A DNA stretch of 64,000 bases from Leifsonia xyli (GTDB lineage: Bacteria; Actinomycetota; Actinomycetes; Actinomycetales; Microbacteriaceae), in contig CP014761.1 of the NCBI GenBank assembly GCA_001647635.1, forward strand, positions 124,001 to 188,000, read 5' to 3'. Within the stretch, counting starts at the first letter, position 1; every line of letters starts with the position of its first letter. The notes beneath the pieces are model-generated. The model did no database searches and had not been told where the DNA came from. It saw nothing but the letters and a program-made list of their open reading frames with translations. Shown here one piece after another: positions 18,150 through 49,287 of this stretch. The position numbers were made by a program, and so were the translations under genes.

Positions 18150-18299
18150 AGCGAAGGGGAGTATCCCGGACGGGCCCGCAGGGTTCCGGCGCTGCGCACG
18201 TCATCACGGCCCTCCATGTCGGCGGACCCGGGCGCAGGGGCACCGCGAGGTGCGGGAGAGACTTTCGGCCATGCCGCACGCCCTCCGAAAGGTTCCCCC
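18150..18299 (+). promoter_or_regulatory. yybP-ykoY (Mn2+) riboswitch in the terC leader
   Basis: The leader contains the conserved blocks of the yybP-ykoY aptamer in order: AAGGGGAGTA (18154-18163), CGTCATCACGG (18199-18209), GCAGGGGCACC (about 18234-18244) and GGGAGAGACTTTC (18254-18266). The class senses Mn2+ and commonly controls TerC and Mn exporters. The aptamer's final strand CTTTCGG (18262-18268) is perfectly complementary to CCGAAAG (18285-18291), which overlaps the Shine-Dalgarno GAAAGG of terC. Mn2+ binding should hold CTTTC in the aptamer and free the ribosome site, giving translational activation. The switching mode is an inference from complementarity. Confidence 0.85.
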
Positions 18300-19376
18300 G
18301 TGGAAGTCGCTTTGCCCCTCTGGTTCGAGATCGGCTCGTTCGTCGTCCTGCTCGCCATCCTCGCGTTCGACCTCATGATCATCTTCAAGCGGCCGCACAT
18401 CCCGAGCCCGAAGGAGGCGGCCCTGTGGGTCACCTTCTACGTGGCCCTCGCGCTGGTGTTCGCGCTGCTGATGCTGCTGATCGGGGATGCGGAGCACGCC
18501 GGGCAGTTCCTCGCCGGCTGGCTGACCGAGTACAGCCTGAGCATCGACAACCTGTTCGTGTTCGTCATCATCATGGCCAGGTTCCAGGTGCCCCGGAAGT
18601 ACCAGCAGGAGGTGCTCATGGTGGGCATCATCCTGGCCCTGATCTTCCGCGGCGTCTTCATCCTGCTGGGCGCCGGGCTCATCGCGAGCTTCAGCGCGAT
18701 CTTCTACCTGTTCGGCGCGTTCCTGCTGTGGACGGCGTTCAACCAGGCGTTCCGCAGCCACGACGACGAGGGCGAGGAGGACTCCTGGTTCATCCGGTTC
18801 GCTCGCCGCCACCTCAAGGTCTCGAACCAGTACGAGGGCAACAAGCTGCGCACCACGGTGAGCGGGCGGAGGATGTTCACGCCGCTGATCATCGTGTTCC
18901 TCGCACTCGGCACCACGGACCTGCTGTTCGCCCTGGACTCCATCCCGGCGATCTTCGGCATCACGCAGAGCCCGTTCATCGTCTTCACCGCGAACGTGTT
19001 CGCCCTGATGGGCCTCCGGCAGCTGTACTTCCTGCTCGGGCACCTGCTCGACAAGCTGGTGTACCTCAAGTTCGGGATCGCGTTCATCCTCGCCTTCATC
19101 GGCGTGAAGCTCATCTTCCACGCCATGCACGAGAACGAGCTGCCGTTCATCAATGGCGGCGAGCACATCGAATGGGCGCCCGACATCAGCACGTGGACCT
19201 CGCTCGCGGTGATCGTCGGTGCGATGCTTGTCGCTACGATTGCAAGTCTGGTGAAACTGCGGATGAGCGGCATCACCGTCGCCGAGGCCATGCACGACGG
19301 CGACACGGAAGACACCGAAGAGGACGAGACCGAGACCGCGGCCGTCGACGGCATCCAGGAGGACCCCCGCACATGA
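18300..19376 (+). CDS. TerC-family membrane protein (putative Mn2+ exporter)
   Basis: This 358-residue protein has about eight hydrophobic segments. The conserved acidic intramembrane motifs are present: TEYSLSIDNLFVFVIIMARF and LGTTDLLFALDSIPAIFGIT, each carrying the DN or DS acid residues expected for cation handling. The C-terminus is a long acidic tail. TerC/Alx proteins export Mn2+ or help metallate secreted proteins. GTG 18300 is chosen because it follows GAAAGG with a seven-base gap and the protein begins VEVALPLWFEIGSFVVLLAI. Its stop overlaps the phosphatase start (ATGA), so the Mn2+ riboswitch may also govern the signalling genes behind it. Confidence 0.88.
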   Translation: MEVALPLWFEIGSFVVLLAILAFDLMIIFKRPHIPSPKEAALWVTFYVALALVFALLMLLIGDAEHAGQFLAGWLTEYSLSIDNLFVFVIIMARFQVPRKYQQEVLMVGIILALIFRGVFILLGAGLIASFSAIFYLFGAFLLWTAFNQAFRSHDDEGEEDSWFIRFARRHLKVSNQYEGNKLRTTVSGRRMFTPLIIVFLALGTTDLLFALDSIPAIFGITQSPFIVFTANVFALMGLRQLYFLLGHLLDKLVYLKFGIAFILAFIGVKLIFHAMHENELPFINGGEHIEWAPDISTWTSLAVIVGAMLVATIASLVKLRMSGITVAEAMHDGDTEDTEEDETETAAVDGIQEDPRT

Positions 19377-20191
19377 GCTCTCTCGTCGGCGTGAGCGTCC
19401 GCAGCGACACGGGTGCGGTGCGGCACGTCAACGAGGACAGCGCTCTGGCGCAGGACCCGGTATTCGTCGTCGCCGACGGCATGGGCGGGCACGCTCGCGG
19501 CGACCTGGCGAGCAGCACGGCGGTCGAGAGCCTGGCGCGCACCCTCCAGGCGGGGACGAGGCCCACCCCCGACGAGGTCATCCGCGCGATCGACGAGGCC
19601 AACGCGGCCGTCCGCGCGCTGTCGGGCGCGGACGAGTCCGGGGCCGCGGTCGCCGGCACGACGCTGACCGGCATCGTCCGGGTACGCGTGCCCGAGCTCG
19701 CCGCCGAGCAGTGGATGGTCGTCAACGTCGGTGACTCCCGCGTCTACAGCTGGGACGGCCGGGCGCTGCGGCAGCTGACCGTCGACCATTCGGCGGTGCA
19801 GGAGCTGGTGGATGCGGGCCTGATCTCCGAGGCGCAGGCGGCCGTGCATCCCGAACGAAACGTCATCACCAGGGCGTTGGGCGCCGAGGACTTCGTCGAC
19901 ACGGACAGCGCCCTCATCCCCGAGCAGGGGCGGCAGATCTTCCTCATCTGCTCCGACGGACTGACCCGCGAGCTGAGCGACGCGCAGATCGCCGCGATCC
20001 TCGCCGAGGGTCCGACCGACCCGGCGGCGGCACTGGTGGCGGCCGCGAACGCGGCAGGCGGCCACGACAACATCACCGTGATCGTGGTTGAATCGGTGAC
20101 CGGGGAGGATGCTCCGGCTCCCGTCGACACGCGCGACCGCGTGGACGGCGCAGGCGGCCGCGAGCTCGAAGACACGCAGCCGAGGGAGTAG
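19373..20191 (+). CDS. PP2C-family Ser/Thr protein phosphatase
   Basis: This 272-residue cytosolic phosphatase shows the PPM motifs in order: SDTGAVRHVNEDSALAQ, VVADGMGGHARGDLAS (metal-binding Asp and Gly), VVNVGDSRVYSW, ICSDGLTRELSD and AGGHDNITVIVVES. It would remove phosphates from targets of the kinase encoded at 21383. It lacks the membrane anchor of PstP. Translation is coupled to terC by an ATGA overlap, and an FHA gene follows after seven bases. PP2C enzymes use two Mn2+ or Mg2+ ions, which makes linkage to a Mn2+-regulated leader notable. Confidence 0.93.
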   Translation: MSSLVGVSVRSDTGAVRHVNEDSALAQDPVFVVADGMGGHARGDLASSTAVESLARTLQAGTRPTPDEVIRAIDEANAAVRALSGADESGAAVAGTTLTGIVRVRVPELAAEQWMVVNVGDSRVYSWDGRALRQLTVDHSAVQELVDAGLISEAQAAVHPERNVITRALGAEDFVDTDSALIPEQGRQIFLICSDGLTRELSDAQIAAILAEGPTDPAAALVAAANAAGGHDNITVIVVESVTGEDAPAPVDTRDRVDGAGGRELEDTQPRE

Positions 20192-20198
20192 GTCGTCC

Positions 20199-21386
20199 GT
20201 GTTCGAGGTTCAGCAGACGGCAGCAGGGGAGTGGGCGGTCGTCGCGGGCGGTGGACGCGCGCTGCTCGTCGCCGAGACCGACGCCGGCCGGCTGCAAGCC
20301 CTGCTGGACGCTGTCCGCGCGGGCTTCGCCGAGACGCTGGATGCGCTGGTCGCGCGAGGACTGAGCCGCACGCCGTCGTTCGCGCTGCTGGACGCGTCCG
20401 CCGAGACGGTGCTGCTCGCCGTGCGAGGCGGCGCGTCCGCGACGGCGACGGAGGGCGGCCGCGACCGTGAGGTGCGCGCGACCGGCGTCTCGTCGTGGGT
20501 CGAGACCCAGCTGGCCGAAGCGCAGGCAGTCGCGCTGGGCGAGCGCGCCGACGCCGGGGCCCTGCCTCTCGTCGAGGGCGTCGTCCGTGCGTCGGGTCTC
20601 GCGTGGTCGGCGGCCGACCCGGCGGAGGAGGTCGGCGCCACGGTGGCGGCGCCGCCGAAGCGCGAGCGCGACACCGGGCCGGTGGATGCGGTCATGGCCG
20701 AGCCCGATCCGCAGACCCGCGTCCCCGAGGCGACGCTGGCGGACGTCGCGCCCATCGCATCCGCGCCCACGGTGGCCGCCCCGGTCGCCGAGACCACCGG
20801 CTACGACCACCTCTTCGGCGCCACGATGGTCCGCAGCGTCGAGGACGCCGCCGTGCGCCCGGACGAGGAGGAGGCGGCGCCGCCTCGCATCGACCTGCCG
20901 GGGTTCATCACCGACTCGTTCCCGCCCGCCGCAGGGAGACTGGAGGGCGACCACGACGGCCTCACCGTGATGAGCGGCGACCTGCCTCAGCGCACAAACG
21001 GCACTCCGGCCGACCCGGATCCCGCGCCCGCTGCTCCCGACCGCCTCGCGTACGCGCTCCTCCTCTCCGACGGCCGCCGCGAGCCGCTGACGGTGCCGAT
21101 CGTCGTCGGCCGGGCGCCGAGTGTCTCCGCGGTGCCGTCGCTCTCCGGCGCCCGTCCGGTCACGCTGACGAGTGCCGAAGACGACATCTCGCGCTCGCAT
21201 GTCGCCGTCGCCGTCGAGGGCGACAGCGTCGTGGTGACCGACCTGCACTCCCGCAATGGCACCGTCATCGTGCTCCCGGGTGCGTCCCCGCAGAAGCTCC
21301 GCAGCGGCGAGCCGACGACCGTCGTTCTCGGCACGCTGATCGACCTGGGGAGCGGCGCGACGCTGACGGTCGAGGCGGCCGGATGA
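20199..21386 (+). CDS. FHA-domain protein
   Basis: This 395-residue protein has a variable N-terminal region (about 1-290, Ala/Glu/Pro-rich in its second half). A C-terminal FHA domain spans about 298-392: YALLLSDGRREPLTVPIVVG, then DISRSHVAVAVEGDSVVVTD and LHSRNGTVIVLP. The Arg, Ser, His and Asn-Gly residues that grip phosphothreonine are present. It should read phosphorylation set by the neighbouring kinase and reversed by the PP2C. GTG 20199 follows a GGGAGTAGG ribosome site that includes the phosphatase stop. Its stop overlaps the kinase start (ATGA). Confidence 0.85.
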   Translation: MFEVQQTAAGEWAVVAGGGRALLVAETDAGRLQALLDAVRAGFAETLDALVARGLSRTPSFALLDASAETVLLAVRGGASATATEGGRDREVRATGVSSWVETQLAEAQAVALGERADAGALPLVEGVVRASGLAWSAADPAEEVGATVAAPPKRERDTGPVDAVMAEPDPQTRVPEATLADVAPIASAPTVAAPVAETTGYDHLFGATMVRSVEDAAVRPDEEEAAPPRIDLPGFITDSFPPAAGRLEGDHDGLTVMSGDLPQRTNGTPADPDPAPAAPDRLAYALLLSDGRREPLTVPIVVGRAPSVSAVPSLSGARPVTLTSAEDDISRSHVAVAVEGDSVVVTDLHSRNGTVIVLPGASPQKLRSGEPTTVVLGTLIDLGSGATLTVEAAG

Positions 21387-23046
21387 GGCGCATGGCGTCG
21401 CAGCCGCCCGAGCTCGACGGCTTCCACTTCATCCGTCTGCTCGGGTCCGGCGGGTTCTCAGACGTCTTCCTGTACGAGCAGGAGCTGCCCAAGCGGAGCG
21501 TCGCCGTGAAGGTGCTGCTGACCGACGGCGTGGACGACGCGGCCCGCGCGCGGTTCGTGGCCGAGGCGAACGTGATGGCGCGGCTCTCCGCCCATCCCTA
21601 CATCGTCACCATCTTTCACGCGGGTGTCGCCGGCGACGACCGTCCGTACCTGGTGATGGAGTACTGCTCCGGCCCGTCGCTCGCCGACCGGCTGAAGCGC
21701 GAGCGGATCGGTGTCGAGGACGCCCTGCGCACCGGCGTCCGCCTGTCCAGCGCTGTCGCGACCGCGCACGCCGCAGGCATCCTGCACCGCGACATCAAAC
21801 CGGCGAATGTGCTCACCACCGCGCTCGGCTGGCCGGCGCTGACCGACTTCGGCATCGCGTCCGCGCTCGAGGAGCTGCCGGTGCACACGACGACGCTGTC
21901 AGAGCTGCGGCGCGAGCCGTCGGACACGGCCACCTCGGGGAGCCGCAGCGTGGGCCTCAGCGTGCCGTGGTCGCCGCCGGAGATGTTCTCCGACGACCCG
22001 GACCCGGACGTGCGCAGCGACATCTTCTCCCTTGCCGCGACGGTCCAGACGCTGCTCGCCGGGCGGACTCCGTTCGAGGTCCCGGGCCGGTCGAACGGCA
22101 CCCTCGATCTGATGGGCCGCATCGAGCGCGGGATGATCACACCGCTCGACCGCACCGACGTCCCGTCCTCGCTCACCGCCTCCCTCCGCCGCGGCATGGC
22201 GACACGGCGCGAGGACCGCTACCAGTCCGCCGTCGACTTCGCCCGCGCTCTTCAGCGGGTCGAGCTGGAGCTGGGCCTGGCTCCGACCAGCATCGACGTG
22301 CCGAATCTCAGCGTCGGGGATGCGCGTCCGGCACCCGGGGGAGCGGCGACGAGCAGGAGACCCGGGCGCGGTCGGTGGCGACCATCCGCGCGCAGCCCGG
22401 GGAGCGCCCCGCGCCGCCCGTCCGGGACGTCGTGGAGCCGGAGGCGCCGGAGCCCGCGGCGACCCGTGTGCGCGGCGTCGCCGAGGTGGCCCCGCAACCG
22501 ACCTCGACGCCCGCTCGCCAGAGCGCGGTCGCCGAGCACACCGTGCTGCGTTCGCGACCGACCCCGCCGGCGGACGACGTCGCCGCACCGCCGTCGTCCG
22601 ACGGCGCTCTCGTCATCGCCCCGCGCGACCCCCGCCGCCGTCTCCTCACCTGGATCGGCGTCGGTGCCGCCGCGGTCGTGGTCCTCGGCGTCGCGGCCAC
22701 GATCCTCGCGAGCGTCCTCGCCCCGGCCGCCGCACCGCGCACGCCCGCCGCGGGCCCCGGCGGCGACGACGGCGGCATCGCCGTGACGGTGGTCCCGCCG
22801 CCGGTCCTGGTCTCCGCCGTCCGCGCCCCCGACGGCGCCAGCGCCGCCTTCACGTGGAAGACCGAGGGCGCGAAGAAGGGCGATCAGTACACCTGGGTGC
22901 AGGAGGGCACGACCAACGGCCCCTCGGTCACGACCGACCCGACAGTGACCGTGACCGGACTCACTCCCGGCGTCCCCGTCTGCATCGACATCGCCACCGT
23001 CCGGGCCGGACGCACCTCCGAGCAGCTGAAGGCGTGCGCCTCGTGA
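21383..23046 (+). pseudogene. Ser/Thr protein kinase with single membrane helix and FN3-like exterior, frameshifted as read
   Basis: The N-terminal kinase domain (about 12-285) has the Gly loop LLGSGGFSDVFLYE, VAVKVL with the ATP-binding Lys, catalytic HRDIKPANVL, DFGIA and WSPPEMFSDD in the APE position. A linker then shifts frame at the G5 run 22337-22341. One added G restores SGDEQETRARSVATIRAQ and a 554-residue protein. Beyond the break lie a membrane helix (LLTWIGVGAAAVVVLGVAAT) and an external FN3-like domain (VSAVRAPDGASAAFTWKTEG to VCIDIATVRAG). No PASTA repeats are present, so the ligand differs from PknB. The FHA-HTH gene overlaps its stop. The break is probably a consensus error. 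Confidence 0.83.
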
Positions 23047-23791
23047 CCGGCGCGGCCACCCGCTCACGGTCGAATACTGCGGCGAGCTGTACACCGTCGA
23101 TCCGGGCACGGAGTTCGGCATCGGCCGCGAGGCCGAGCTGACCATCGACGACAACCCGTACCTGCATCGCCGCTTCCTGACGGTGGTGCACGACTTCGGG
23201 ATGTGGTGGCTGAGCAACGTCGGCACCCTCCTGACCGCTACGGTCACGGATGCCACCGGCACCATGCAGGCGTGGCTCGCTCCCGGTGCCAAGCTCCCGA
23301 TCGTCTTCCCGACCATGCATGTCATGTTCAGCGCCGGCGCGACGACCTACGACTTCACGATCACGAGCGACGAGGACTGGTACGCCACCGCCGTCCAGGT
23401 GGACGCCTCGCACGGCTCCACGACGGTGCTCCCGGTCACGCTGACCACGAGTCAGCGGCAGCTCATCGTCGCCCTCGCCGAGGGCGTCCTGACGCAGACC
23501 GTGCCCGGCCGGGGCACCATCCCGAGCTCGGCCGAGGCGGCGGAGCGGCTGGGCTGGAGCATGACCACGTTCAACCGCAAGCTCGATAACGTCTGCGACA
23601 AGCTCGACAAGCTCGGCGTGGCCGGTCTCCGCGGCGGCCGCGGCAAGCTCGCGACCAATCGTCGCGCGCGCCTGGTCGAGTATGCGGTGACCACACGACT
23701 CGTCGGCGTGGAGGACCTGCCCCTCCTTGAGGGGGACCCCGCACGCCTTGACCCTGCCGCGACTCCGCGGGAGGGTGGGGCGGACGACTGA
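23043..23791 (+). pseudogene. FHA domain fused to a C-terminal helix-turn-helix, frameshifted as read
   Basis: GTG 23043 overlaps the kinase stop. As read, the frame breaks at the C3 run 23059-23061. Adding one C gives MTGAATPLTVEYCGELYTVD and a 249-residue protein. The N-terminal FHA domain shows FGIGREAELTIDDNPYLHRR (phosphothreonine-binding Arg and the S/H positions replaced by YLHRR). After a beta region (SDEDWYATAVQVDASHG), TTSQRQLIVALAEGVLTQ and AEAAERLGWSMTTFNRKLDN, then VCDKLDKLGV form a winged-helix-like DNA-binding segment at about 140-205. It may couple kinase activity to transcription. The first complete start as read is GTG 23183, but that loses most of the FHA domain. Confidence 0.78.
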
Positions 23792-23816
23792 CGCGCGAGG
23801 CGCGTGGCCCGGCGGG

Positions 23817-23836
23817 AATGGGGAGTCCTCCCCATT
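23817..23836. promoter_or_regulatory. Perfect 20-base inverted repeat upstream of the giant surface-protein gene
   Basis: AATGGGGAG-TC-CTCCCCATT is a perfect inverted repeat with a two-base centre, too tight to form a good hairpin but well suited to a dimeric regulator. It lies between the FHA-HTH gene and the surface-protein gene, about 23 bases upstream of a -10-like TAGCGT (23859-23864), that is, near the -35 region. The FHA-HTH protein is a candidate ligand; this is an inference. Confidence 0.6.
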
Positions 23837-23897
23837 CGGACGCGTCACCGGGCCGTGTTAGCGTGGACGCGTTTCCAGCCCGGGGGATAGCAGAGTC

Positions 23898-26800
23898 TTG
23901 GTTTCGTTGAGCAGGTGGATCCGTGAGCGCAAGACGCTCGCGATGATCACCGCAGTCGCCGTCGTCGCCGGCGTCCCGCTCGCCATCGCCGTGCTGCACA
24001 GGGGCTTCCCGGTGAACGCCGTCGAGCTCGACACCCGTGACGTGTGGGTCACCAACGGTGAGAAGCTGCTCGGCGGCCGGCTGAACCACCAGATCGACGA
24101 GCTGGACGCGGCGGTCACGGGCGCGAGCGCCGACCTGGACGTGCTCCAGGACGGGTCGGCGTACTTCCTGACCGACCTCCCGCACGGCACGGTCGACCGC
24201 ATCGACCCGGCCTTCGTGTCGCTCGGCGGCCGCATCCAGATCCCGGAGGACTCGCAGGTCGGCTACGGCGGCAACACCCTGTCGGTGCTCGCGCCGAACG
24301 GCTCCCTCTGGGTGCTGGATGCGTCCGGCCGCCTCGACTTCGATAAGGCGAAGACCAAGCCGGTCGCCAAGGTCGGGAGCGGGGCGAAGCTGGCGGTCGC
24401 GAAGTCGGGCAAGACCTTCGTGGTCGCCCCGAAGAGCAAACGGCTCGTCACCGTGGACCACCCGAACGCGACGCCGCAGACCCGCGACTTCCCGGTGCCG
24501 GGAGCATTCCAGCTGACCGCGGTCGGCGACCAGCCCGTCCTGCTGGACACGCAGCGCAACCGGGTGATCACCGGCTCCGGCACGACGGTCGACCTGCCGG
24601 CGAAGGGGTTGAAGCTCCAACAGCCTGGGCAGGACGATCCGGCGGCGCTGGTGGCCACCGCGAACAGCCTGCTGACGGTCCCGCTCGGCGGCGGGAAGGT
24701 CGTCGCCGCTCCCGCGGGCGCCACGGCGAAGGGCGGCCCGGATGCGGTGTCCGCGCCCGTGCGGCTCGGCACCTGCTCCTACGGCGCGTGGTCCGGCTCG
24801 GGCCGCTACCTCTATTCGTGCGACGGCAAGAAGCCCGTCGGGCTGGACATCGACCAGCCGGTCCAGGGTGACGACCTCGAATTCCGCGTCAACCACGACG
24901 TGATCGCGCTCAACAACCTCCGCGACGGCAACGCGTGGGTGGTCTCCTCCGACATGCGGCTGGTGCAGAACTGGGCGCAGCTGAAGCCCAACGACACCAC
25001 CGTGCAGGGCGACACCGGCGAGGAGAAGCCGGTGGTGCAGTCCTTCGCCGACACCCTCGCGCAACGCACCGAGGTCAACCGGCCGCCGGTCGCGGTGAAC
25101 GACGCGTACGGCGTGCGGCCCGGCCGCTCCACCGTGCTGCACGTGCTGGCGAACGACACCGATCCGGACGGTGACGTGCTGACCATCTCGGACGTCTCCG
25201 CCATCCCTGCCGCGCAGGGCGTGCTACAGCTCGTCGAGGGAGGCCGCGCCATCCAGTTCACGCCGAAGGAGGGGCTGAGCGGGACGATCTCGTTCCGCTA
25301 CTCCGTCGACGACGGCCGCGGCGGCACCGCCGGAGCGCAGGTGGATGCGACGCTCAAGCAGCCGGCCGAGAACGCGGCTCCCGCCTCCACCCGGTCGAGC
25401 ACCGCGCAGACCGAGGTCGGCCAGTCCGTCACCTACAACGTCCTCAACGACTGGATCGACCCGGACGGCGACGACCTCAGCCTGGTCGCCGCGACGGCGA
25501 CCACCGAGGACGACGTGCGGTTCAAGCCGAACGGCGACGTCACCTTCACCAGCAAGACCGGCCAGGCCGGATCGAAGGAGGTGCGGGTCACCGTCTCGGA
25601 CGGCCGCGCGTCCACCACCGGCAGCCTGATCGTGACGGTCAAGCCGGCCGGCACCCTGGACCCGGTGGCGGTCACCGACTTCGCGGACGGCTTCACCGGA
25701 CGGCCGGTGGTGCTGCATCCGCTCGACAACGACCAGTCGCCGTCAGGCGAGCCGCTCACGCTCGTCGGAGCCTCCCTCGACGGATCGGGCGCCCAGGTGA
25801 CCGCCGACGCCACCAAGAGCACGATCACGGTGAAGACCAACTCCCCGGGCCAGTACTACATCGAGTACACGCTCGGCGCGGGCCCCAAGACGACGACCGG
25901 CCTCGCCCGCGTCGACATCGCGGCGCAGGGCGCCAGTGAGGCGCCGCCGATCGCGGTCACCGACAAGGCGTACGTGCGGCCCGGCGAGCCGACCTCGGTC
26001 GCCGTGCTGGACAACGACGTGTCGCCGTCGGGTCGCGTGCTGGCCGTCCGCTCGGTGGCAGTAGGGAAGGGCGCGGAGGACCTCAACGTCGAGGTGCTCG
26101 ACAACGCGGTCGTCAAGATCACCGCCCCGACCGTGCTCACGCAGCAGGTGCAACTGACGTACGTCGTCTCGGACGGCGTCGCCGAGGCGACGGCAGGGAT
26201 CACGGTCGTGCCTGTCCCGCCGCTGGTCCAGCACCAGCCTCCGGTCGCCGTCGACGACCAGGTGCCGGTCCGCGCGGGCGATGTCGCCACCGTGCCCGTG
26301 ATGGACAACGACTACTCGCCCGACAACGCGCCCTTCACGCTGGATGCGCAGCTGCGGGATGCGAGCGGCGCCGGCGATGGCGCGACGGCCTTCGTGAGCG
26401 GTGAGACCGTCCGCTACCAGGCGCCGACCACGTCGGGCCAGTACAACGTGGTCTACGGCATCACCGACAAGTACGGGCAGAAGGCGCAGGCGACGGTCAC
26501 CTTCGTGGTCGAGGCGCCGACAAGGGGTCCGACCGCGCCCCGCAGCCGGCGCCGCTGACGGTGCGTGCATTCGCCGGCTCGTCCGTGCCGGTCGATGTGC
26601 CGCTCGACGGCATCGACCCGGACGGCGACTCGGTTACGCTCTCCGGCCTCGCCACCCAGCCGACGCTGGGACGCATCTCCGACTCCACCAGCCGGTCCTT
26701 CACCTACGAGGCCTACCCGGACTCGGCGGGCACCGACACCTTCACCTACCAGGTGAAGGACACGTACGGGAAGACCGCCACCGGCACGGTATCGATCGCC

Positions 26801-29173
26801 GTCATCCCTCGCCCGGACCAGGTGCGGCCGCCGATCGCGGTCAACGACCCGGTGCAGGTCAAGCCCGGCCGGACGATCGCGGTGCCGGTGCTCGACAACG
26901 ACTCGGACCCGAACGGCTACGCCATCGCACTGCAGAAGAAGCTGCTCCAGGTGGACGACGGACTCAAGGCGTCGGTGCACGGCAAGATCGTGCTCGTCAC
27001 CGCGCCGAAGGAGGAGGGCTCGTTCGTCGTCCGCTACCAGATCACGAACGGTCAGGGCGGAGTCGCGAGCGCGTTCATCCAGGTCACGGTCACGCCCAAC
27101 GCGAAGGACGTACCGCCGACCGCGGTCGACCACGTGCTGGAGGCCGACGAGGTCGCGGACAAGAGCAGCGTGAAGGTGAACGTCCTCGACGGGGCGACCA
27201 ACCCGTCCGGGCTCGTCGATGCCCTCAAGGTGGATGTGACCGGCCCGAACGCATCGGCGGCGACGGTCGGCGACGACGGCACCCTGACCGTCAAGCCGGG
27301 CGAGCAGCGGATCGCGATCGCCTACACCCTCACCGACCCGGTCACCTCGCTGAAGGGCACCGCGTTCGTCGTCGTGCCGCCCAAGGGCGACGCGACCGCC
27401 CCTCCTCGCCTCCGCGACGGACTGCCGCAGCAGATCGTGCAGTCCGACGGCTCCAAGAGCTGGAGGCTGTCCGACATCCTCACGGTGCCCTCCGGCCGCG
27501 GCTACAAGCTCACCGGCGCCTCGGGCGTCAGTGCGACGAACAGCGCGGGCGGATCGTCCTACGGCGACGAGCAGACGCTGACCTTCACGGCGGCGAAGGG
27601 CTACCGCGGGCCGGCCGCGATCACCTTCAAGGTGAACGACGGTCGCGAGGCGGGGACGACGGCCGACCGCGTCACGACGCTCGTGCTGCCGATCACCGTG
27701 GGGGAGCCTGACCAGTCCGACGTCGCGCCGACGTTCACGTCGCCCAGCGAGAGGATCGAGCCGGGCGAGGCTCCGCTCTCGGTCGACCTGCGGGCGTCGA
27801 GCTTCCACCCGAACCCGGACATCCTGAGCAAGCTGACGTACGCCGGCGGGACGTCGCCGAACCCGAGGATCCAGTCGTCCCTCAGCGGATCGACGCTCAC
27901 CCTCTCGGCGCCGCTCGGCGCACAGGCGGGCGAGACCGCGTCGATCCCGGTGACGATCAGCTCGGGCACGCACACCATCCAGGGCACGGTGAACGTGCAG
28001 GTCGTGAGCTCCAGCCGGCCGGTCGCCACGCAGAAGAACCCGCCGCAGACCGAGGAGGTCAAGCGCGGGCAGACGGCCACCCTGAACGGCGCCGCGAGCG
28101 ACGACCAGTGGGTGAACCCGTTCCCCGGGCAGGCGCTGATGATCACCGACGCCACGGCGCAGAGCGCGCCGTCGGGGGTCACGGTGACGCACACCGGGTC
28201 GTCGATCAGCGTGAGCGCATCCTCGGGTGCGGCGATCGGCGCGGTCAGCGTCGTGTACCACGTCGAGGACGCGACCAAGGATCCGAAGCGGACCGCCTCG
28301 GCCATCGGGCAGCTGCGGGTGACGATCCACGACGTGCCCGCGAAGCCGAGCGCGCCGTCGAACCCCCGGGCGAGCGACGGGAAGGTCACGGTGGCGATCA
28401 AGGCCCCGGCCGACAACGGCAAGCCGATCACGAATTACCAGGTCACCGACGGCACGCACACGGTGACGACGCAATCGGTCGGGGATGTGACGATCGGCGG
28501 CCTGACGAACGGGAAGTCGTACTCCTTCACGGTGCGCGCGCAGAACGCGGACGGATGGAGCGAGCAGTCCGCGGCGAGCCCGGCGGTCACGCCGTACGGC
28601 ACCCCCACCGCGGTCGGCAACGCCAAGATCAGCAGCAGCGGCAACGCGCCGAGCGACCTCACGCTGAGCTGGAGCGCGCTCTCCGACCCGAACGGCACCG
28701 GAGGCGGGAAGGCGACCTATCACTGGCGGCTCAACGGCGGCGGCTGGAACGACACCACCTCGACCTCGGCGAAGGTCAACAACAAGGGCGCCGGGAGCTA
28801 CTCCTTCGAGATCTACGCCTCCAACCCGGGCGGCAAGGACGGTCCGCACTCCACGTCGAACACCGTGCAGGTCAACGACCCGCCGCCGCCGTCGCCCTCG
28901 GTGGACCTCGCGAAGGGCGACCTCAAGCCCGGATATGTCCACAGCTACACGTACGACGTGACTCTCCACAATTTCAAGGCGAACTCGTCGTTCAGCATGC
29001 AGGTGCACTGCAATGGAGGAACGCTGTCCACCCGCACGATCAACACGGACGGCAGCGGATATGGGCACTACCACGGCGACCCCAACAGCAGCATCGAGCC
29101 GTGGTGCGGCTACCCCGGTGCGTACGTGGTGGTCGGCGGCGTCCAGAGCAGTGTCCAGGACTGGTCCAAGTAA
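23898..29173 (+). pseudogene. Giant membrane-anchored Ig-like/FN3 protein (about 1,758 residues), frameshifted as read
   Basis: The N-terminal half ends at 26558 and the C-terminal half continues in another frame. Adding one C to the C4 run 26538-26541 reads PTAPPQPAPLTVRAFAGSSV and joins them. The protein starts at TTG 23898 with a short positive tail and one membrane helix (MITAVAVVAGVPLAIAVL). A beta-propeller-like region (about 35-390) follows, then repeated cadherin/Ig-like domains marked by LANDTDPDGDVLTI, LNDWIDPDGDDLSL, LDNDQSPSGEPLTL, LDNDVSPSGRVLAV, MDNDYSPDNAPFTL, LDGIDPDGDSVTL and LDNDSDPNGYAIAL. Two FN3-type domains (about 1,470-1,660) and a C-terminal Cys-containing domain complete it. 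It probably projects through the cell wall. MoxR follows after 12 bases. Confidence 0.85.
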
Positions 29174-29185
29174 GGAGAACACGCA

Positions 29186-30154
29186 GTGGCAGTCACACAG
29201 GAGCAGGCGGACTGGTTCGCCGGGGCGTTCGCGCAACTCGTCGCGAACGTCGACAAGGCGATCCTCGGCAAGGAGCACAGCATCCGCCTGGTGATCACGG
29301 CGATGCTCTCCGGCGGCCACGTGCTGCTCGAGGACGTGCCCGGCACGGGCAAGACGGTGCTCGCGAAGGCGCTCGCCAACACGGTCGAGGGCACGCAGTC
29401 GCGCATTCAGTTCACTCCGGACCTGCTGCCGTCCGACGTCACCGGTGTGACCATCTACGACCAGTCGACCGGGCGCTTCGAGTTCCACGCGGGTCCGATC
29501 TTCGCGACCGTCGTGCTCGCCGACGAGATCAACCGCGCCAGCCCGAAGACGCAGTCCGCGCTGCTCGAGGTGATGGAGGAGGGGGTGGTCACGGTCGACG
29601 GCGTCGGACATCCCGTCGGATCGCCGTTCGTCGTCATCGCCACGCAGAACCCGGTGGAGCAGGCGGGCACGTACTCGCTCCCCGAGGCGCAGCTCGACCG
29701 CTTCCTGATCAAGACGTCGCTCGGCTATCCGGACCACGCGACGACCGTCGATCTGCTGCTCGACTCGTCCAACCGGGCGCGCGCGTCCGCGGTGCGGCCG
29801 ATCATCGCGGCGGACTCGGTGTCGACGCTGGCCCAGCTCGCCTCCGAGGTGCACACCGACGCCAGCGTGATGGGGTACCTCAGCGAGATCGTGACGGCCA
29901 CGCGCGACGACAAGGACTCGGCCCTCGGTGTGAGCATCCGAGGCGCCCTGGCGCTCGCCCGCGCGGCGAAGACGTGGGCGATCGCGGCCGGACGCACCTA
30001 CGTGACGCCGGACGACATCCGAGACCTCGCTCTGCCGGTGCTGGCCCACCGGGTGATCGTCGACCCCGAGTCGGAGTTCGCCGGGGTGACCGCGGCCGAC
30101 GTGGTCGAGCGGGCGGTGGCGTCCGCGACGCCGCCGGCGTACCGCGCGGCCTGA
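29186..30154 (+). CDS. MoxR-family AAA+ ATPase (first copy)
   Basis: This 322-residue cytosolic ATPase has Walker A in DVPGTGKTVLAKALANT (about residues 50-66), Walker B VVLADEINRASPKTQSALLE (about 109-128), sensor 1 VIATQNPVEQAGTYSLPEAQ and a C-terminal lid. MoxR proteins act as chaperones that assemble or activate partners, commonly encoded next to DUF58 proteins, as here. Start GTG 29186 has a strong AAGGAG eight bases upstream. The Walker B strand and flanking residues closely match the second MoxR at 48220, pointing to duplication of the module. Confidence 0.93.
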   Translation: MAVTQEQADWFAGAFAQLVANVDKAILGKEHSIRLVITAMLSGGHVLLEDVPGTGKTVLAKALANTVEGTQSRIQFTPDLLPSDVTGVTIYDQSTGRFEFHAGPIFATVVLADEINRASPKTQSALLEVMEEGVVTVDGVGHPVGSPFVVIATQNPVEQAGTYSLPEAQLDRFLIKTSLGYPDHATTVDLLLDSSNRARASAVRPIIAADSVSTLAQLASEVHTDASVMGYLSEIVTATRDDKDSALGVSIRGALALARAAKTWAIAAGRTYVTPDDIRDLALPVLAHRVIVDPESEFAGVTAADVVERAVASATPPAYRAA

Positions 30155-30200
30155 GAGCCCCTTCCCGAAGCCGACCCGACCTCCGACACGACAGGACCGA

Positions 30201-31517
30201 ATGACCACCGACAGCCCCGCCCGCGCCCGGCGCCGCCGCGCGTCGGCCGCCGACCAGGCGCGCATCGCCGTGTCGCAGGTCGGCGTGGCGCTCGGGCACG
30301 CTGCCGGTCGCGTCGGCGGGTGGGCGGCGCCGTTCGGTCGTGCGGTCGGTGTCCGCGTCCGCCCCGTCGTCGGGGTCGTGAGCACGCTCGGGTGGATCGT
30401 GCTCGCGTCGGCCGTCGTCTCGGTCGTCCTGGCGGTGTGGCTCGGCTGGGCGGAGTTCGTCTTCATCGCGGCGACCCTGCTCGCGGCGCTCGTGATCGCG
30501 ACGGCCTTCGTCTTCGGGCGGTCGACCTACCGAGTGGGCATCGAGCTCAACCCACGGCGCGTCGTCGCCGGTGACCGGGCGCTCGGCAGGCTCACGGTGG
30601 CCAACAGCGGAGCGCGGCCGGTGCTGCCGACGCGGATGGAGCTGCCGGTCGGCGAGGGTCAGGCCGACTTCACCATCCCGCGACTCGCGCCCGGGGCCGA
30701 GACGGAGGAGCTCTTCGCCGTCCCGACCGCGCGGCGGGCGCTGATCCTGGCAGGCCCGGCGATCTCGGTGCGCGGGGACCAGCTGGGGCTGCTGCGGCGC
30801 ACCAACCGGTGGACGGACCAGATCGAGCTGTTCGTCCATCCCAAGACCGTCCGCCTCGCGGCCACGGCGCGCGGCCTGGTCCGCGACCTCGAAGGCCAGA
30901 CCACGAAGGTCATCACGGACAGCGACCTGGCATTCCACGCGCTGCGCACCTACGAGCCCGGCGACGACATCCGCAACGTGCACTGGCGGACGTCGGCGCG
31001 CACCGGCCAGCTCATGGTGCGGCAGTACCAGGAGACGCGCCGTTCTCAGCTGCTGCTCGCGTTCGACGCGGAGCGGTCGCATTTCGCGTCCGACGAGGAG
31101 TTCGAGCTCGGCGTCTCCGTGATGACCTCCATCGGGTGCCAGGTGATCCGCGAGGAGACGGAGATGGACGCGGTGTGGCAGGGCGGCCCCATGCGCGTGG
31201 CGACGCCGACGGCACTGCTCGACGACTCCTGCCGCATCCAGCCGGTGGAGGGGGCGCACGCGAGCATCCGCGAGTTCCTGCGCCAGGCCACGCTGCGGCT
31301 GGCCGCACCGAGTCTCGCCGTGACCGTCGCCGGCTCGCAGGTCGACCCCGCCGAACTGCGCGGCGCCGCAGCGCTGTGGGGCACCGACACCGAGACGATC
31401 GTCATCCGCGTCGACGAGGCCGGGGAGCCGCGGCTCGCGCGACTCGGGCGCTCGATGCTGATCACCGTGTCGACGCTGCCGGAGCTTCCGGCCCTGCTGA
31501 AGCGGGCCGGCCGATGA
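30201..31517 (+). CDS. DUF58-domain membrane protein (first copy)
   Basis: This 438-residue protein has a basic Ala-rich N-terminus and two membrane helices (about 62-105). The cytosolic part carries the DUF58 signature YEPGDDIRNVHWRTSARTGQ (about 253-272), then LMVRQYQETRR. DUF58 proteins are predicted VWA-like partners of MoxR ATPases. ATG 30201 lies 46 bases after the MoxR stop. Its stop overlaps the next start by ATGA, so DUF58 and the transglutaminase-like protein are coupled. Confidence 0.9.
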   Translation: MTTDSPARARRRRASAADQARIAVSQVGVALGHAAGRVGGWAAPFGRAVGVRVRPVVGVVSTLGWIVLASAVVSVVLAVWLGWAEFVFIAATLLAALVIATAFVFGRSTYRVGIELNPRRVVAGDRALGRLTVANSGARPVLPTRMELPVGEGQADFTIPRLAPGAETEELFAVPTARRALILAGPAISVRGDQLGLLRRTNRWTDQIELFVHPKTVRLAATARGLVRDLEGQTTKVITDSDLAFHALRTYEPGDDIRNVHWRTSARTGQLMVRQYQETRRSQLLLAFDAERSHFASDEEFELGVSVMTSIGCQVIREETEMDAVWQGGPMRVATPTALLDDSCRIQPVEGAHASIREFLRQATLRLAAPSLAVTVAGSQVDPAELRGAAALWGTDTETIVIRVDEAGEPRLARLGRSMLITVSTLPELPALLKRAGR

Positions 31518-33883
31518 CCGCCGCGACCGGCACGACCCGGCGCACGACGGCGCGAGACGGGGCGACGGGCCGCGCCGCCGCCGCGCCGACGCTCGACAGG
31601 CTGCCGACGACGACGTGGATCGACGTCGTCGTGCTCACACTGCTGAGCCTCGTCGCCGTCGTCGGCTTCGAGCCCGCCTTCGGCCATTACGCCTTCGTCC
31701 CCGCGGCCGTCGGCGGCATCGTCGTCGGCGGGGGAGTCGCCCTGCTCGGGCGCCTCTTCCGTCTGTCGTGGCCGCTCACCGTCGTGGTGGCGCTGGCCGC
31801 ATACTTCCTGCTCGGGACGCCGCTGGCGCTTCCCGGCCTCGCGCTCTACGGGGTGCTGCCGTCGCTCGACAGCCTCTCCGGCCTCGTGCTGGGCGCGGTC
31901 TTCGGATGGTCGGACGCGGTCACCCTCCAGGCGCCGCTGGAGGCGCCGCCCTATGTCGCCGTCGTGCCGTATGTCGCCGGCTGGCTCGTCTCGCTCGTGT
32001 CGGTGACCCTCGCAGTGCGCTGGCTGCCCCTTGTCCGCCGGCCGTCCGCCGGTCGCGCGGCCGTGCTGCTGACCGGACCGGCGCTGCTGCTGCTCGCCGC
32101 GATCCTGCTCGGCACACGCGATCCGTTCTTCGCGGGTATCCGCGGCGTCCTCTTCGCGGCTATCGCGCTCGTCTGGCTGTCCTGGCGCCGCGGCCGCTTC
32201 GCCCGGGACCGCGTGGAGACCGACTCCGCAGTGCGTCGCAGCCGACTGCTCGGCGGCGCGGCCGTCGTCCTCGGCGCAGTGCTGGTCGGCGCGCTGGCCG
32301 GGTCTGTACTCGCCCCGCCTGCGGCCTCCCGTTTCGTCGTCCGCGACGAGATCACGCCGCCGTTCGATCCGCTCGACTACCCGAGCCCGCTCGCCGGGTT
32401 CCGCAAGTACACCAAGGACCTCCAGAAGACGAAGCTCTTCACGGTCACCGGCCTCCGGCAGGGCCAGGTCATCCGCCTCGCGACGATGGACAGCTACGAC
32501 GGCGTCGTCTGGTCGGTTGCGGCCCCGGGCAGCGACGCGGACGCCTCCGGCGCCTTCGAACTGCTCGGCAGCACGATTCCGAAGCCGCCGCTGTTCACGC
32601 CGGGCGCCTCGTCCACCGCGTCCATCGACGTGCTCGGATACTCGGACGTCTGGCTCCCCACCCTCGGCTACACGAACCGCCTCACCTTCGACGAGCACAC
32701 GGGTCAGGATCCAGCGGCCACCGTCCGGGTCAATACAGCGACCGGGACGGCGGCCGTCACGAGCGGCGTGCGCGACGGTCTGACCTACACCGTCGGCGCC
32801 ACCGCCCAGAAGGTGCCCAGCGACCGCGCGCTCGCCAAGGTCCCTCCGGCGAAGCTGACGCTGCCGCCCGTCACGAACGTCCCCGACGTGGTGTCCGCCA
32901 AAGCGGAGGAGTACGCGGGGTCGGCCGACACGGCCATCCAGAAGCTGCGGAACATCGAACGCTCGCTCAAGTCGCTCGGCTACCTCAGCCACGGCCGGGC
33001 CTCCGACCCGGTGCCGTCGCGCGCGGGCCAGGGCGCGGACCGGATGACGGACCTGCTCTCGAAGGCCCCGATGGTGGGCGATCAGGAGCAGTACGCGGGC
33101 GCTTTCGCCCTGATGGCCCGGCAGCTGGGCTACCCGACGCGGGTGGTGATGGGCTTCGCCCCCAAGGTGACCGGGAGCACCACCACGGTCACCGGCGACG
33201 ACGTGACCGCCTGGGACGAGGTGGCGTTCGACGGGGTCGGCTGGGTGCCGTTCTTCCCGACGCCGACCAAGACCGACGCCCCCAAGAACCAGACCACCAA
33301 GCCGAAGCTCGAGCCGCAGCCGCAGGTCCGGCAGCCGCCGCCCGCCGATCCGCGCGCCGAAGACCTGCTGACGCCGGTGAAGACGAAGGACAACGATCCG
33401 AAGGACAAGGCGAAGCCGTTCCAGCTGCCGGCCTGGGCGTGGGTGGTGCTCGGTGTGATCGGCATCCCGCTGCTGGCCTACTTCGTGCCCCTCCTGATCG
33501 TGGCGGCGCTCAAGCGTCGGCGACGGCGCCGGCGCGAGACGACTGGACCGCCCGACCGACGCGCCGCGGGCGCCTGGGACGAGCTGGCCGACGGCTACGC
33601 CGAGCTCGGCCTGACCCTGCCCGAGAGGGCGACGCGCATCCAGACGGCCGATGCGCTCGAGCAGCAGTCCCGGGCCCAGAGCCTGCCCGTCCCGGACGGC
33701 GGACTGCGCGACCTCGCTCAGCACGTCGACGCCGCCGTCTTCGACGGGTCCGTCGTGACGGAGGAACGGGTCGATCGGGCGTGGCGCACGACCGACGACG
33801 CCCTCGCGCAGGCGACCACCGCCGCCGGGCCGCTGCGCGCCCGCCTCGCGGCGTTCCGCTACCGCCGCCCGCGCCGCGCCTGA
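31514..33883 (+). CDS. Transglutaminase-like membrane protein (TgpA type) lacking the catalytic Cys and His
   Basis: This 789-residue protein has an N-terminal block of about six helices (36-280), a large exterior domain, one more helix (about 643-665) and a cytosolic C-terminal region, which is the TgpA layout. The transglutaminase core is at about 515-590. Where active members have GxCxxYA, this protein has MVGDQEQYAGAFALMARQLG, with Gln in the Cys position. Where HAWxE is expected it reads VTAWDEVAFDGVGWVPF, with Thr in the His position. Fold-defining residues remain, so it is probably a pseudoenzyme that binds rather than cross-links. The paralogue at 50604 keeps both residues. It is coupled to the DUF58 gene. 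Confidence 0.87.
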   Translation: MTAATGTTRRTTARDGATGRAAAAPTLDRLPTTTWIDVVVLTLLSLVAVVGFEPAFGHYAFVPAAVGGIVVGGGVALLGRLFRLSWPLTVVVALAAYFLLGTPLALPGLALYGVLPSLDSLSGLVLGAVFGWSDAVTLQAPLEAPPYVAVVPYVAGWLVSLVSVTLAVRWLPLVRRPSAGRAAVLLTGPALLLLAAILLGTRDPFFAGIRGVLFAAIALVWLSWRRGRFARDRVETDSAVRRSRLLGGAAVVLGAVLVGALAGSVLAPPAASRFVVRDEITPPFDPLDYPSPLAGFRKYTKDLQKTKLFTVTGLRQGQVIRLATMDSYDGVVWSVAAPGSDADASGAFELLGSTIPKPPLFTPGASSTASIDVLGYSDVWLPTLGYTNRLTFDEHTGQDPAATVRVNTATGTAAVTSGVRDGLTYTVGATAQKVPSDRALAKVPPAKLTLPPVTNVPDVVSAKAEEYAGSADTAIQKLRNIERSLKSLGYLSHGRASDPVPSRAGQGADRMTDLLSKAPMVGDQEQYAGAFALMARQLGYPTRVVMGFAPKVTGSTTTVTGDDVTAWDEVAFDGVGWVPFFPTPTKTDAPKNQTTKPKLEPQPQVRQPPPADPRAEDLLTPVKTKDNDPKDKAKPFQLPAWAWVVLGVIGIPLLAYFVPLLIVAALKRRRRRRRETTGPPDRRAAGAWDELADGYAELGLTLPERATRIQTADALEQQSRAQSLPVPDGGLRDLAQHVDAAVFDGSVVTEERVDRAWRTTDDALAQATTAAGPLRARLAAFRYRRPRRA

Positions 33884-33905
33884 CGCCCCTCGTATAGTGG
33901 GGCGC

Positions 33906-34385
33906 ATGGACGACAGCGGGTTCATCGTGCCTCCGCCCGGTCTCATCCCGTCGCGAACGGAAGCCGGAGATCCGACGGGCGATGCCGACTCCGTCCCCGG
34001 CCGTCCGCTGCCCGTCTTCACCCCGCCGCCCGGCCCCGGCGCGCCCGTCGCCCCTGCGCGCCCCGTCTGGCGGCTGCACCTGCCCGGCGACCGCAGCCTG
34101 CCGCTGACGCGCCCGGTCCTCCTCGGCCGCAACCCGGCTGCTTCCGCGGCGCCGCCCGGGGTCGCGGACGCCGAGCTCATCGCGCTCGACGACCCCGCGT
34201 CCACCGTCTCGAAGACCCACGCCGCGCTGCTGCCGGACGGTGACGCGCTCACCGTGATCGACCTCCACTCGACCAACGGCGTCACGCTCGCCGGCGTTCG
34301 CATCCCGGCGGGGGAGCCCGTCCCGGTCGCCCCCGGCAGCGAGCTCCTGCTGGGTGAGCTCCGGGTGCGCGCCGAACGCTCCTGA
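33906..34385 (+). CDS. FHA-domain protein, short
   Basis: This 159-residue protein has a Pro-rich N-terminus (about 1-55) and a compact FHA domain (about 56-155): RPVLLGRNPAA, ASTVSKTHAALL and DLHSTNGVTLAGV supply Arg, Ser-x-x-His and Asn-Gly for phosphothreonine binding. It ends the envelope half of the cluster. A near-perfect -10 box TATAGT (33893-33898), seven bases before ATG 33906, indicates an internal promoter and a leaderless message, so it may be made independently of the upstream genes. Confidence 0.85.
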   Translation: MDDSGFIVPPPGLIPSRTEAGDPTGDADSVPGRPLPVFTPPPGPGAPVAPARPVWRLHLPGDRSLPLTRPVLLGRNPAASAAPPGVADAELIALDDPASTVSKTHAALLPDGDALTVIDLHSTNGVTLAGVRIPAGEPVPVAPGSELLLGELRVRAERS

Positions 34386-48219: not shown

Positions 48220-49287
48220 ATGAACAGTTACGCGACGCGCCAGCCCACCGAATCGTCCGTCGCGCCCGAGGAGGAGACGGACGCCGCCCCCGGCATGGGC
48301 CTGGACGAGCTGCGCCGCGCCGCCGAGCAGATCACCGCCAACGTGGAGTCGGTCATCGACGGCAAGCACGAGGCGGTGCAGACCGCGCTGGTCGTGCTGC
48401 TGGCCGAGGGGCATCTGCTGATCGAGGACGTGCCCGGCGTCGGCAAGACCATGCTCGCGAAGTCGCTGGCGAAGTCGGTGGACTGCAGCGTCAGCCGTAT
48501 CCAGTTCACGCCCGACCTGCTGCCCAGCGACGTCACGGGCGTCTCGGTCTACAACCAGGCCGAGCGGCGGTTCGAGTTCAAGCCGGGCGCGATCTTCGCG
48601 AACATCGTCATCGGCGACGAGATCAACCGCGCCAGCCCCAAGACGCAGTCGGCGCTGCTCGAGTGCATGGAGGAGCGCCAGGTCACGGTCGACGGGTCGA
48701 CGTATCCGCTCGCCGCGCCCTTCATCGTTGTCGCAACGCAGAACCCGGTCGAGATGGAGGGCACCTACGCCCTGCCGGAGGCCCAGCGGGACCGCTTCAT
48801 GGCCCGCATCGCCATGGGGTACCCCGATGAGGGCTCGGAGCTCGCCATGCTGACCACGCGCGACACGTCGAGCCCCCTGTCCCGCATCCGTCCCGTCGTG
48901 ACCTCGGACGAGCTGCGGGCCATGATGGTGACCGCGCGCAGCGTGTTCGCCTCGACGCCGGTCAAGCAGTACGCCGTGGACCTCGTGCGCGCCACCCGCG
49001 AGGACCGCGACCTGCGCCTCGGCGCGAGTCCCCGCGCCACCCTGCAGCTCATCCGCGCCGCCAAGGCGACGGCGGCGCTGGCGGGACGCGACTTCGTGCT
49101 CCCGGACGACGTGGACGCGCTGGCCGTGCCAGTGCTCGGCCACCGCCTCCTCCCCACCAGCCGCGCCCTCGGCCACCATCACGAGAGCGCCCCCGTTATC
49201 GCGGACATCGTGCGCCGCATCGTCTCCTCCACGCCCGTGCCGGTCGGTTCGGGCGCGCCCGCGCCGGTGCGGGGAACCGGGCGCTAG
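48220..49287 (+). CDS. MoxR-family AAA+ ATPase (second copy)
   Basis: This 355-residue ATPase has Walker A GVGKTMLAKSLAKSVDC (about 79-95), Walker B IVIGDEINRASPKTQSALLE, sensor ATQNPVEMEGTYALPEAQRD and a C-terminal lid with GASPRATLQLIRAAKATAAL. It has a longer, Glu-rich N-terminus than the copy at 29186. It begins nine bases after coaD and is followed by DUF58 and transglutaminase genes with minimal gaps. It probably chaperones or remodels those partners. Confidence 0.92.
   Translation: MNSYATRQPTESSVAPEEETDAAPGMGLDELRRAAEQITANVESVIDGKHEAVQTALVVLLAEGHLLIEDVPGVGKTMLAKSLAKSVDCSVSRIQFTPDLLPSDVTGVSVYNQAERRFEFKPGAIFANIVIGDEINRASPKTQSALLECMEERQVTVDGSTYPLAAPFIVVATQNPVEMEGTYALPEAQRDRFMARIAMGYPDEGSELAMLTTRDTSSPLSRIRPVVTSDELRAMMVTARSVFASTPVKQYAVDLVRATREDRDLRLGASPRATLQLIRAAKATAALAGRDFVLPDDVDALAVPVLGHRLLPTSRALGHHHESAPVIADIVRRIVSSTPVPVGSGAPAPVRGTGR

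Follow-up and report, generated by a model that had tools for sequence, protein, structure and literature searches.

What system is encoded by a run of genes in Leifsonia xyli in which a set for Ser/Thr phospho-signalling adjoins a set for a MoxR ATPase, a DUF58 protein, a transglutaminase-like protein (Tgm) and a giant surface protein? The genes lie within a stretch of 64,000 nucleotides (the window; positions 124,001 to 188,000 of contig CP014761.1, assembly GCA_001647635.1), at 142-158 kb of a genome assembled as a single contig of 3.6 Mb, and follow one another on the plus strand in the order terC, PP2C, FHA1, kinase, FHA2, giant, moxR, duf58, tgm, FHA3, leuC. An initial annotation had taken them for an undescribed, manganese-linked system. 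We find that they are homologous to the PFNA operon of Bifidobacterium, for which a function has been proposed in print, and that the two gene sets, rightly joined in that annotation, form a unit conserved well past close strains. On balance, we regard the block as an enlarged actinobacterial PFNA homologue, a phospho-regulated and ATP-driven envelope machine whose mechanism we infer.

The PFNA operon, as far as the available text of PMC8430577 describes it, runs pkb2, fn3, aaa-atp, duf58, tgm, prpC, a hypothetical gene and fha in B. longum, on one transcript, and all eight genes are also carried by B. saguini. In the B. saguini locus (L101 in our numbering of loci), the order is kinase-giant-MoxR-DUF58-Tgm-PP2C-FHA, so that both clusters share, in one direction, the core kinase-FN3 giant-MoxR-DUF58-Tgm. 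The proteins correspond along their length, beyond shared domains, as judged from the comparison with B. saguini and from trees of MoxR and kinase: MoxR is 58% identical, DUF58 36%, Tgm 35% and kinase 35%, and the two pieces of the window's giant align at 29% over 883 columns (E 1.7e-84) and 34% over 720 (E 3.4e-80). The window differs from PFNA in that PP2C and FHA1 come before the kinase, an extra FHA2 separates kinase and giant, FHA3 directly follows Tgm, terC and leuC flank the block, the host is not a gut organism, and the genome holds a second, paralogous cluster.

This homology bears directly on the published claim that the cluster is unique to bifidobacteria, with orthologues reported as not found elsewhere (in the parts of PMC6803598 and PMC10688814 available to us). 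We scanned named genomes and, of the 487 places confirmed, used the best 80, in all of which Tgm is present by construction; 21 are from Bifidobacterium and 59 from other hosts, including Cellulomonas, Actinotalea, Jonesia, Sanguibacter, Georgenia, Microbacterium, Agromyces, Agreia, Cryobacterium, Glaciibacter, Subtercola, Herbiconiux, Arthrobacter, Sinomonas, Promicromonospora, Isoptericola and Propionibacteriaceae. With 59 of these 80 loci outside Bifidobacterium, the uniqueness claim fails and the homology stands. In the literature covered, which includes few subscription journals and leaves out the first PFNA papers, no report places PFNA outside Bifidobacterium, save for a mycobacterial resemblance mentioned in the accessible part of PMC12067865. 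Within Bifidobacterium itself, we also observed the cluster in B. pullorum subsp. saeculare (L104), although PMC8430577, in the text available, describes the B. pullorum group as lacking it.

The initial annotation had been reminded of gene orders in other actinobacteria, and a survey of gene order located this one far outside close strains. Tgm matches occur in 29 of 30 related genomes and orthologous Tgm in 11 of 18 congeners (65-89% identity), the closest named sequence being a Leifsonia poae record (95% identical; two more records so named reach 72-74%). All 11 congeneric loci fetched keep the full order PP2C-FHA1-kinase-FHA2-giant-MoxR-DUF58-Tgm-FHA3, a recurrence that is not due to chance, and 10 of them also keep terC and leuC as flanks. 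The paralogous cluster, FHA-PP2C-kinase-giant-MoxR-DUF58-Tgm at ~362-377 kb of the window's genome (L036, L037), is likewise general: its type of Tgm was found in 18/18 congeners and its order in 9/9 genomes fetched, the window's own included. For order counts in named loci we used loci whose upstream sequence reaches 8 kb or more (20 Bifidobacterium and 50 other loci from the same best 80). Giant, MoxR, DUF58 and Tgm are contiguous in 11/11 congeneric, 20/20 Bifidobacterium and 48/50 other named loci (the exceptions being L130 and L137), and the kinase lies inside the block in 11/11, 20/20 and 44/50, respectively, the last comprising 24 upstream and 20 downstream placements; some kinase matches are cut short by the end of the locus. 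PP2C is visible in 14/20 Bifidobacterium and 20/50 other named loci, and FHA in 6/20 and 43/50. One record, Isoptericola halotolerans KCTC 19046, appears as both L049 and L145 and is counted twice where both occur. At the level of the class, 80 of 197 genomes hold a Tgm-like match at 1e-10, and among 16 stretches sampled from the 21 places of at least 150 bits outside the window's genome, the giant-MoxR-DUF58-Tgm quartet is present in 15 and PP2C in 2.

A permuted order, giant-MoxR-DUF58-Tgm-(FHA)-PP2C-FHA-kinase-FHA2, was seen in 11 of the loci (L114, L119, L120, L126, L129, L134, L135, L144, L145, L153 and L161), where Tgm often has the His of the active site though not the Cys.

Tgm itself (31514..33883) is a polytopic TgpA-like protein (Transglut_core 2.2e-13, TgpA_N 1.7e-08) with seven plus one transmembrane helices predicted by hydropathy scan, and the one solved relative that we found is TgpA (PDB 6g49). 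Active transglutaminases and TgpA use a Cys-His-Asp catalytic triad; in the window's Tgm, Q, T and F stand at these three places, and the initial annotation's term pseudo-transglutaminase is thus right for this protein and, as it turns out, for cluster-type Tgm in general. The catalytic Cys is absent from 123/123 cluster-type sequences, a set that contains 21 from Bifidobacterium, a few from short contigs with the giant out of view, and one (L175) without a giant. The place is occupied by D, S, Q, E, G or A within G[DN]xEQ[YF] surroundings, and the His is retained in 32/123. Because one of the two patterns used to scan for loci itself required D, Q or E at the Cys place, we repeated the count with the pattern-scan loci set aside and again found no Cys (0/43); the Bifidobacterium sequences, with Ser in 20 and Gly in 1, could not have been selected by that pattern. 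Protein-database homologues gave the same result (0/120, the best 120 of 477 and mostly close). As controls, we compared ten generic MoxR-DUF58-transglutaminase triads of the TgpA-like kind, which consist of three genes in the same order as in the block: six from the same taxonomic order (L060-L062, L068-L070) keep the Cys and have no giant, and four weaker class-level triads (L182-L185) also lack the Cys, L185 with a weak giant-like match. Since the residues around the lost Cys are conserved, we interpret the Cys-less Tgm, from its sequence, as a putative binding module rather than a decaying enzyme.

The giant (23898..29173) was annotated as an Ig-like/FN3 protein, and domain searches agree, with Big_9 in the first of its two pieces (9e-54) and Big_9 (3.2e-28) and fn3 (4.1e-10) in the second. 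Its architecture comprises one N-terminal transmembrane helix, a beta-propeller, Big_9/cadherin-like repeats and fn3, and two Cys are invariant across 40 aligned rows. Residues 1-395 are modelled as a propeller (predicted local distance difference test score, pLDDT, 87.7). Foldseek ranks 1l0q highest, a structure that covers the YVTN propeller and PKD domains from a surface-layer protein of an archaeon, followed by NirN/NirF and BamB; the template-modelling scores are modest (0.41-0.56 in most of the top ten). The papers on PFNA, in the text available, say that FN3 reads host cytokines via WSxWS-like motifs and call Tgm transglutaminase-like, and PMC8430577 terms WSxxS a "cytokine receptor motif". 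The second piece of the window's giant carries such a motif in FN3, WSEQS, and the surrounding region is alike in congeners, Actinotalea, Cellulomonas and Bifidobacterium (GLTNGxxYxFxVRAxNxxGWSxxS). WSxxS lies within the FN3 zone in 11/11 congeneric, 20/20 Bifidobacterium and 49/81 other giants, that is, in 60 of 92 giants from outside Bifidobacterium, and the motif alone is therefore no proof of host adaptation. In an upstream zone it occurs in 3/112 giants, and the reversed motif occurs in 0/112. The exact WSxWS is found in 14/81 other giants and 1/20 from Bifidobacterium.

MoxR and the kinase tie the clusters together by descent. MoxR (29186..30154; AAA_3 1.2e-61; aaa-atp-like) falls with all 87 cluster rows of a 92-row tree into one clade (support 99) that leaves the 5 generic rows outside, and the 17 Bifidobacterium rows form one clade (100) nested inside it, in a quick search that returned long-branch warnings. 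The motifs of cluster MoxRs are intact, with PGxGKT in 124/126 MoxRs (generic ones included). The membrane kinase (21383..23046; Pkinase 1.1e-33; pkb2-like) has a single predicted transmembrane helix followed by an exterior tail. The initial annotation described a kinase with an FN3-like exterior; the kinase domain is borne out, while the exterior has no Pfam match and is weakly similar to the tails of other cluster kinases. Against the NCBIfam model NF033483 of the PASTA kinase PknB family, the kinase piece alone scored 152 bits, below the cut-off of 450. In a kinase tree, 39 cluster kinases, which cover both arrangements and Bifidobacterium, are set apart by a branch of 100 from 7 further kinases encoded in the window's genome; this was again a quick search with long-branch warnings, with hand-chosen cluster loci and 6 of 52 candidate rows dropping out.

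How far do these observations carry the envelope-machine reading of PFNA? The occurrence of the cluster in many soil and plant bacteria, together with a Tgm without catalytic Cys, makes an original job in the cell envelope more likely, and we lean towards viewing PFNA as the form taken in one lineage by an ancient actinobacterial envelope machine whose kinase-controlled MoxR/DUF58 motor acts via Cys-less Tgm on the giant. A different account holds that PFNA is the host-immune system of Bifidobacterium, as published, and that the window's cluster is a mere look-alike. It can draw on reports (PMC8430577, PMC10688814 and PMC12607495, in their accessible parts) that B. longum FN3 fragments show TNF-alpha binding in vitro and that TNF-alpha raises PFNA expression, yet full-length homology and the same order in non-bifidobacterial hosts, the spread of WSxxS (missing from the FN3 zone in 32 of the 81 other giants) and the higher frequency of exact WSxWS outside Bifidobacterium, the lack of the reversed motif and the missing Cys in 21/21 Bifidobacterium Tgm all speak against it, and we consider it unlikely. 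A further account would make the phospho-signalling set merely an independent neighbour of the MoxR/DUF58/Tgm/giant set. Consistent with this, the quartet has no visible kinase in 11 of the 16 class-level loci, and the position of the kinase set, upstream or downstream, varies between lineages; in opposition, the block includes a kinase in 75 of 81 loci (11+20+44 of 11+20+50) though the window's genome has 9 kinases in all, the cluster kinases of both arrangements group together in the tree, and MoxR is a reported Pkb2 substrate (PMC8430577, in the available text). We judge this account, too, improbable.

Several points nevertheless weigh against an ancient kinase-controlled envelope machine. 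A kinase is visible in only 5/16 class-level loci, so the kinase set is not indispensable; three genes of the block are broken in this assembly; and for two of the FHA/HTH (helix-turn-helix) and exterior-domain claims no family matched. We found no experiment for any host other than Bifidobacterium, and published reports that TNF-alpha is bound and that it induces PFNA genes (PMC10688814 and PMC12607495, text available in part) favour a host role at least in Bifidobacterium. The cytokine data can be joined with the envelope machine: the "cytokine receptor motif" would then be an inherited FN3 feature and cytokine binding, if physiological, a late addition, a combination that we hold to be somewhat favoured. 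The published restriction of PFNA to Bifidobacterium is contradicted by our results, and both the reading of cytokines by FN3 and the transglutaminase-like description of Tgm are weakened; what is new here is that PFNA is not confined to Bifidobacterium, is not evidently about host immunity, and has a Tgm without the catalytic Cys.

For the envelope machine, we envisage a membrane kinase that responds to a state at the wall, with MoxR and the sites bound by FHA proteins as its substrates. The phosphorylation of MoxR by Pkb2 reported from B. longum (PMC8430577, as far as its text is available) is the sole experimental step, and comes from another genus. MoxR, with DUF58 as a vWA-like partner, would drive the assembly or release of a membrane complex by ATP via the cytosolic tail of Tgm. 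Outside the membrane, Tgm, its catalysis lost, may serve as a binding module that holds or places the anchored propeller/Ig/FN3 giant. The FHA proteins would read phosphothreonine, with FHA2 possibly relaying the signal to DNA, and PP2C would reset the switch. As some loci show the quartet but no kinase, the older core may be the motor and surface part.

Other known systems resemble the block in part. The variant T7SSd of type VII secretion (described in the available text of PMC11217815) likewise has a kinase, a phosphatase and FHA proteins together with TsdI, a giant Ig-like protein of the envelope; we rejected it because WXG100 matches the window's genome only once, at 1.49 Mb, far from the block. 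A 2025 review (PMC12067865, in the part accessible) likens the mycobacterial moxR1 operon to PFNA, and by its description that operon has DUF58 followed by a vWA membrane protein, with no giant or Tgm named. We also considered membership in the MoxR-vWA-beta-propeller conflict systems of Kaur et al. 2020, as the window's MoxR matches the bpMoxR model (36.8 bits against a cut-off of 27) and the giant contains a propeller. In those systems, however, propeller and vWA belong to one fused protein, the P-loop frequently reads GxxxTAKS and most hosts belong to other phyla (PMC7159879, in the text available); here the propeller is the N-terminal part of a separate, anchored giant, and GxxxTAKS occurs in 0/126 MoxRs. 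We reject this assignment on architecture and regard it as highly improbable.

The manganese link of the initial annotation had TerC as its sole basis. The terC gene (18216..19376; TerC/Alx family membrane protein; TIGR03718 358.7 bits, above cut-off; PF03741 6.7e-49), for which a GTG start at 18300 is likelier than the listed one, adjoins the block in one arrangement only. Among nine leuC-type loci from outside Leifsonia (L139, L146, L147, L152, L158, L163, L164, L178 and L179), six carry terC on the strand of tgm and 12-14 kb upstream of it, with contig identity certain in L178 and L179 and inferred from coordinates in four; terC is at ~18 kb in L147 and was not seen in L163, and L146 ends at a contig edge. 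A search for a riboswitch of the yybP-ykoY kind at 14-40 kb of the window (E<=0.5) returned none near terC, only one unrelated weak match. We set the manganese link aside: TerC is peripheral, and probably a neighbour rather than part of the core.

The order, direction and coordinates of the genes agree with the initial annotation, and domain searches back its gene names save for FHA2 and the kinase exterior. The phosphatase PP2C (19373..20191; prpC-like; PP2C_2 1.3e-09) scores 9.8e-62 with the NCBIfam Stp1 model, under that model's cut-off. FHA1 (20199..21386; PF00498 7.4e-06) has its FHA domain at the C end, and FHA3 (33897..34385; PF00498 2.7e-10) is a short FHA protein. FHA2 (23060..23791), an FHA domain with a helical C-terminal part, has no Pfam match at E<=0.01 and was identified from a 26-row alignment and a structure model (pLDDT 78; top match Rv1747 FHA-1); of the earlier label FHA-HTH, the FHA fold is upheld by this model and the HTH is unconfirmed. 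DUF58 (30201..31517; vWA-like; PF01882 5.5e-13) has one hydropathy peak, read as a membrane anchor; in a loose alignment, most cluster DUF58 proteins have no DxSxS metal site in their vWA-like strand. A third MoxR in the window (48412-48801), with a transglutaminase-like gene at 50682-52601, is of the generic kind by similarity.

Overlaps had been proposed to join the first five genes. With the listed starts, 4-nucleotide overlaps are present at terC/PP2C and FHA1/kinase, a gap of 7 nucleotides separates PP2C from FHA1, and the kinase/FHA2 junction is masked by frame breaks. Downstream, duf58 and tgm overlap by 4 nucleotides, and the gaps are 12 nucleotides (giant/moxR), 46 (moxR/duf58), 13 (tgm/FHA3) and 152 (FHA3/leuC).

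The breaks themselves, overlooked in the initial annotation, number three in this assembly, at ~22.34 kb in the kinase, ~23.05 kb at the start of FHA2 and ~26.52 kb in the giant. Kinase and giant are each spread over two reading frames, and FHA2, its start blurred, has no in-frame start codon ahead of its domain. In all 11 congeneric loci (L038-L048), by comparison, kinase and giant each occupy a single frame and FHA2 has in-frame upstream starts. The tgm of the paralogous cluster in the window's genome is also split over two frames. Sequencing error seems to fit these breaks better than decay, as there are several in one assembly and the relatives have none.

The hosts outside Bifidobacterium come from soil, leaf, root and groundwater, to judge from record names and general knowledge, and some are clinical isolates. 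Finding the same operon and the same kind of motif in such bacteria changes the assumption from which work on PFNA starts. The Tgm family, conserved without its catalytic Cys, is often labelled as cysteine proteases in databases, an annotation that can be corrected, and the non-bifidobacterial carriers provide host-free organisms in which the function of PFNA can be tested.

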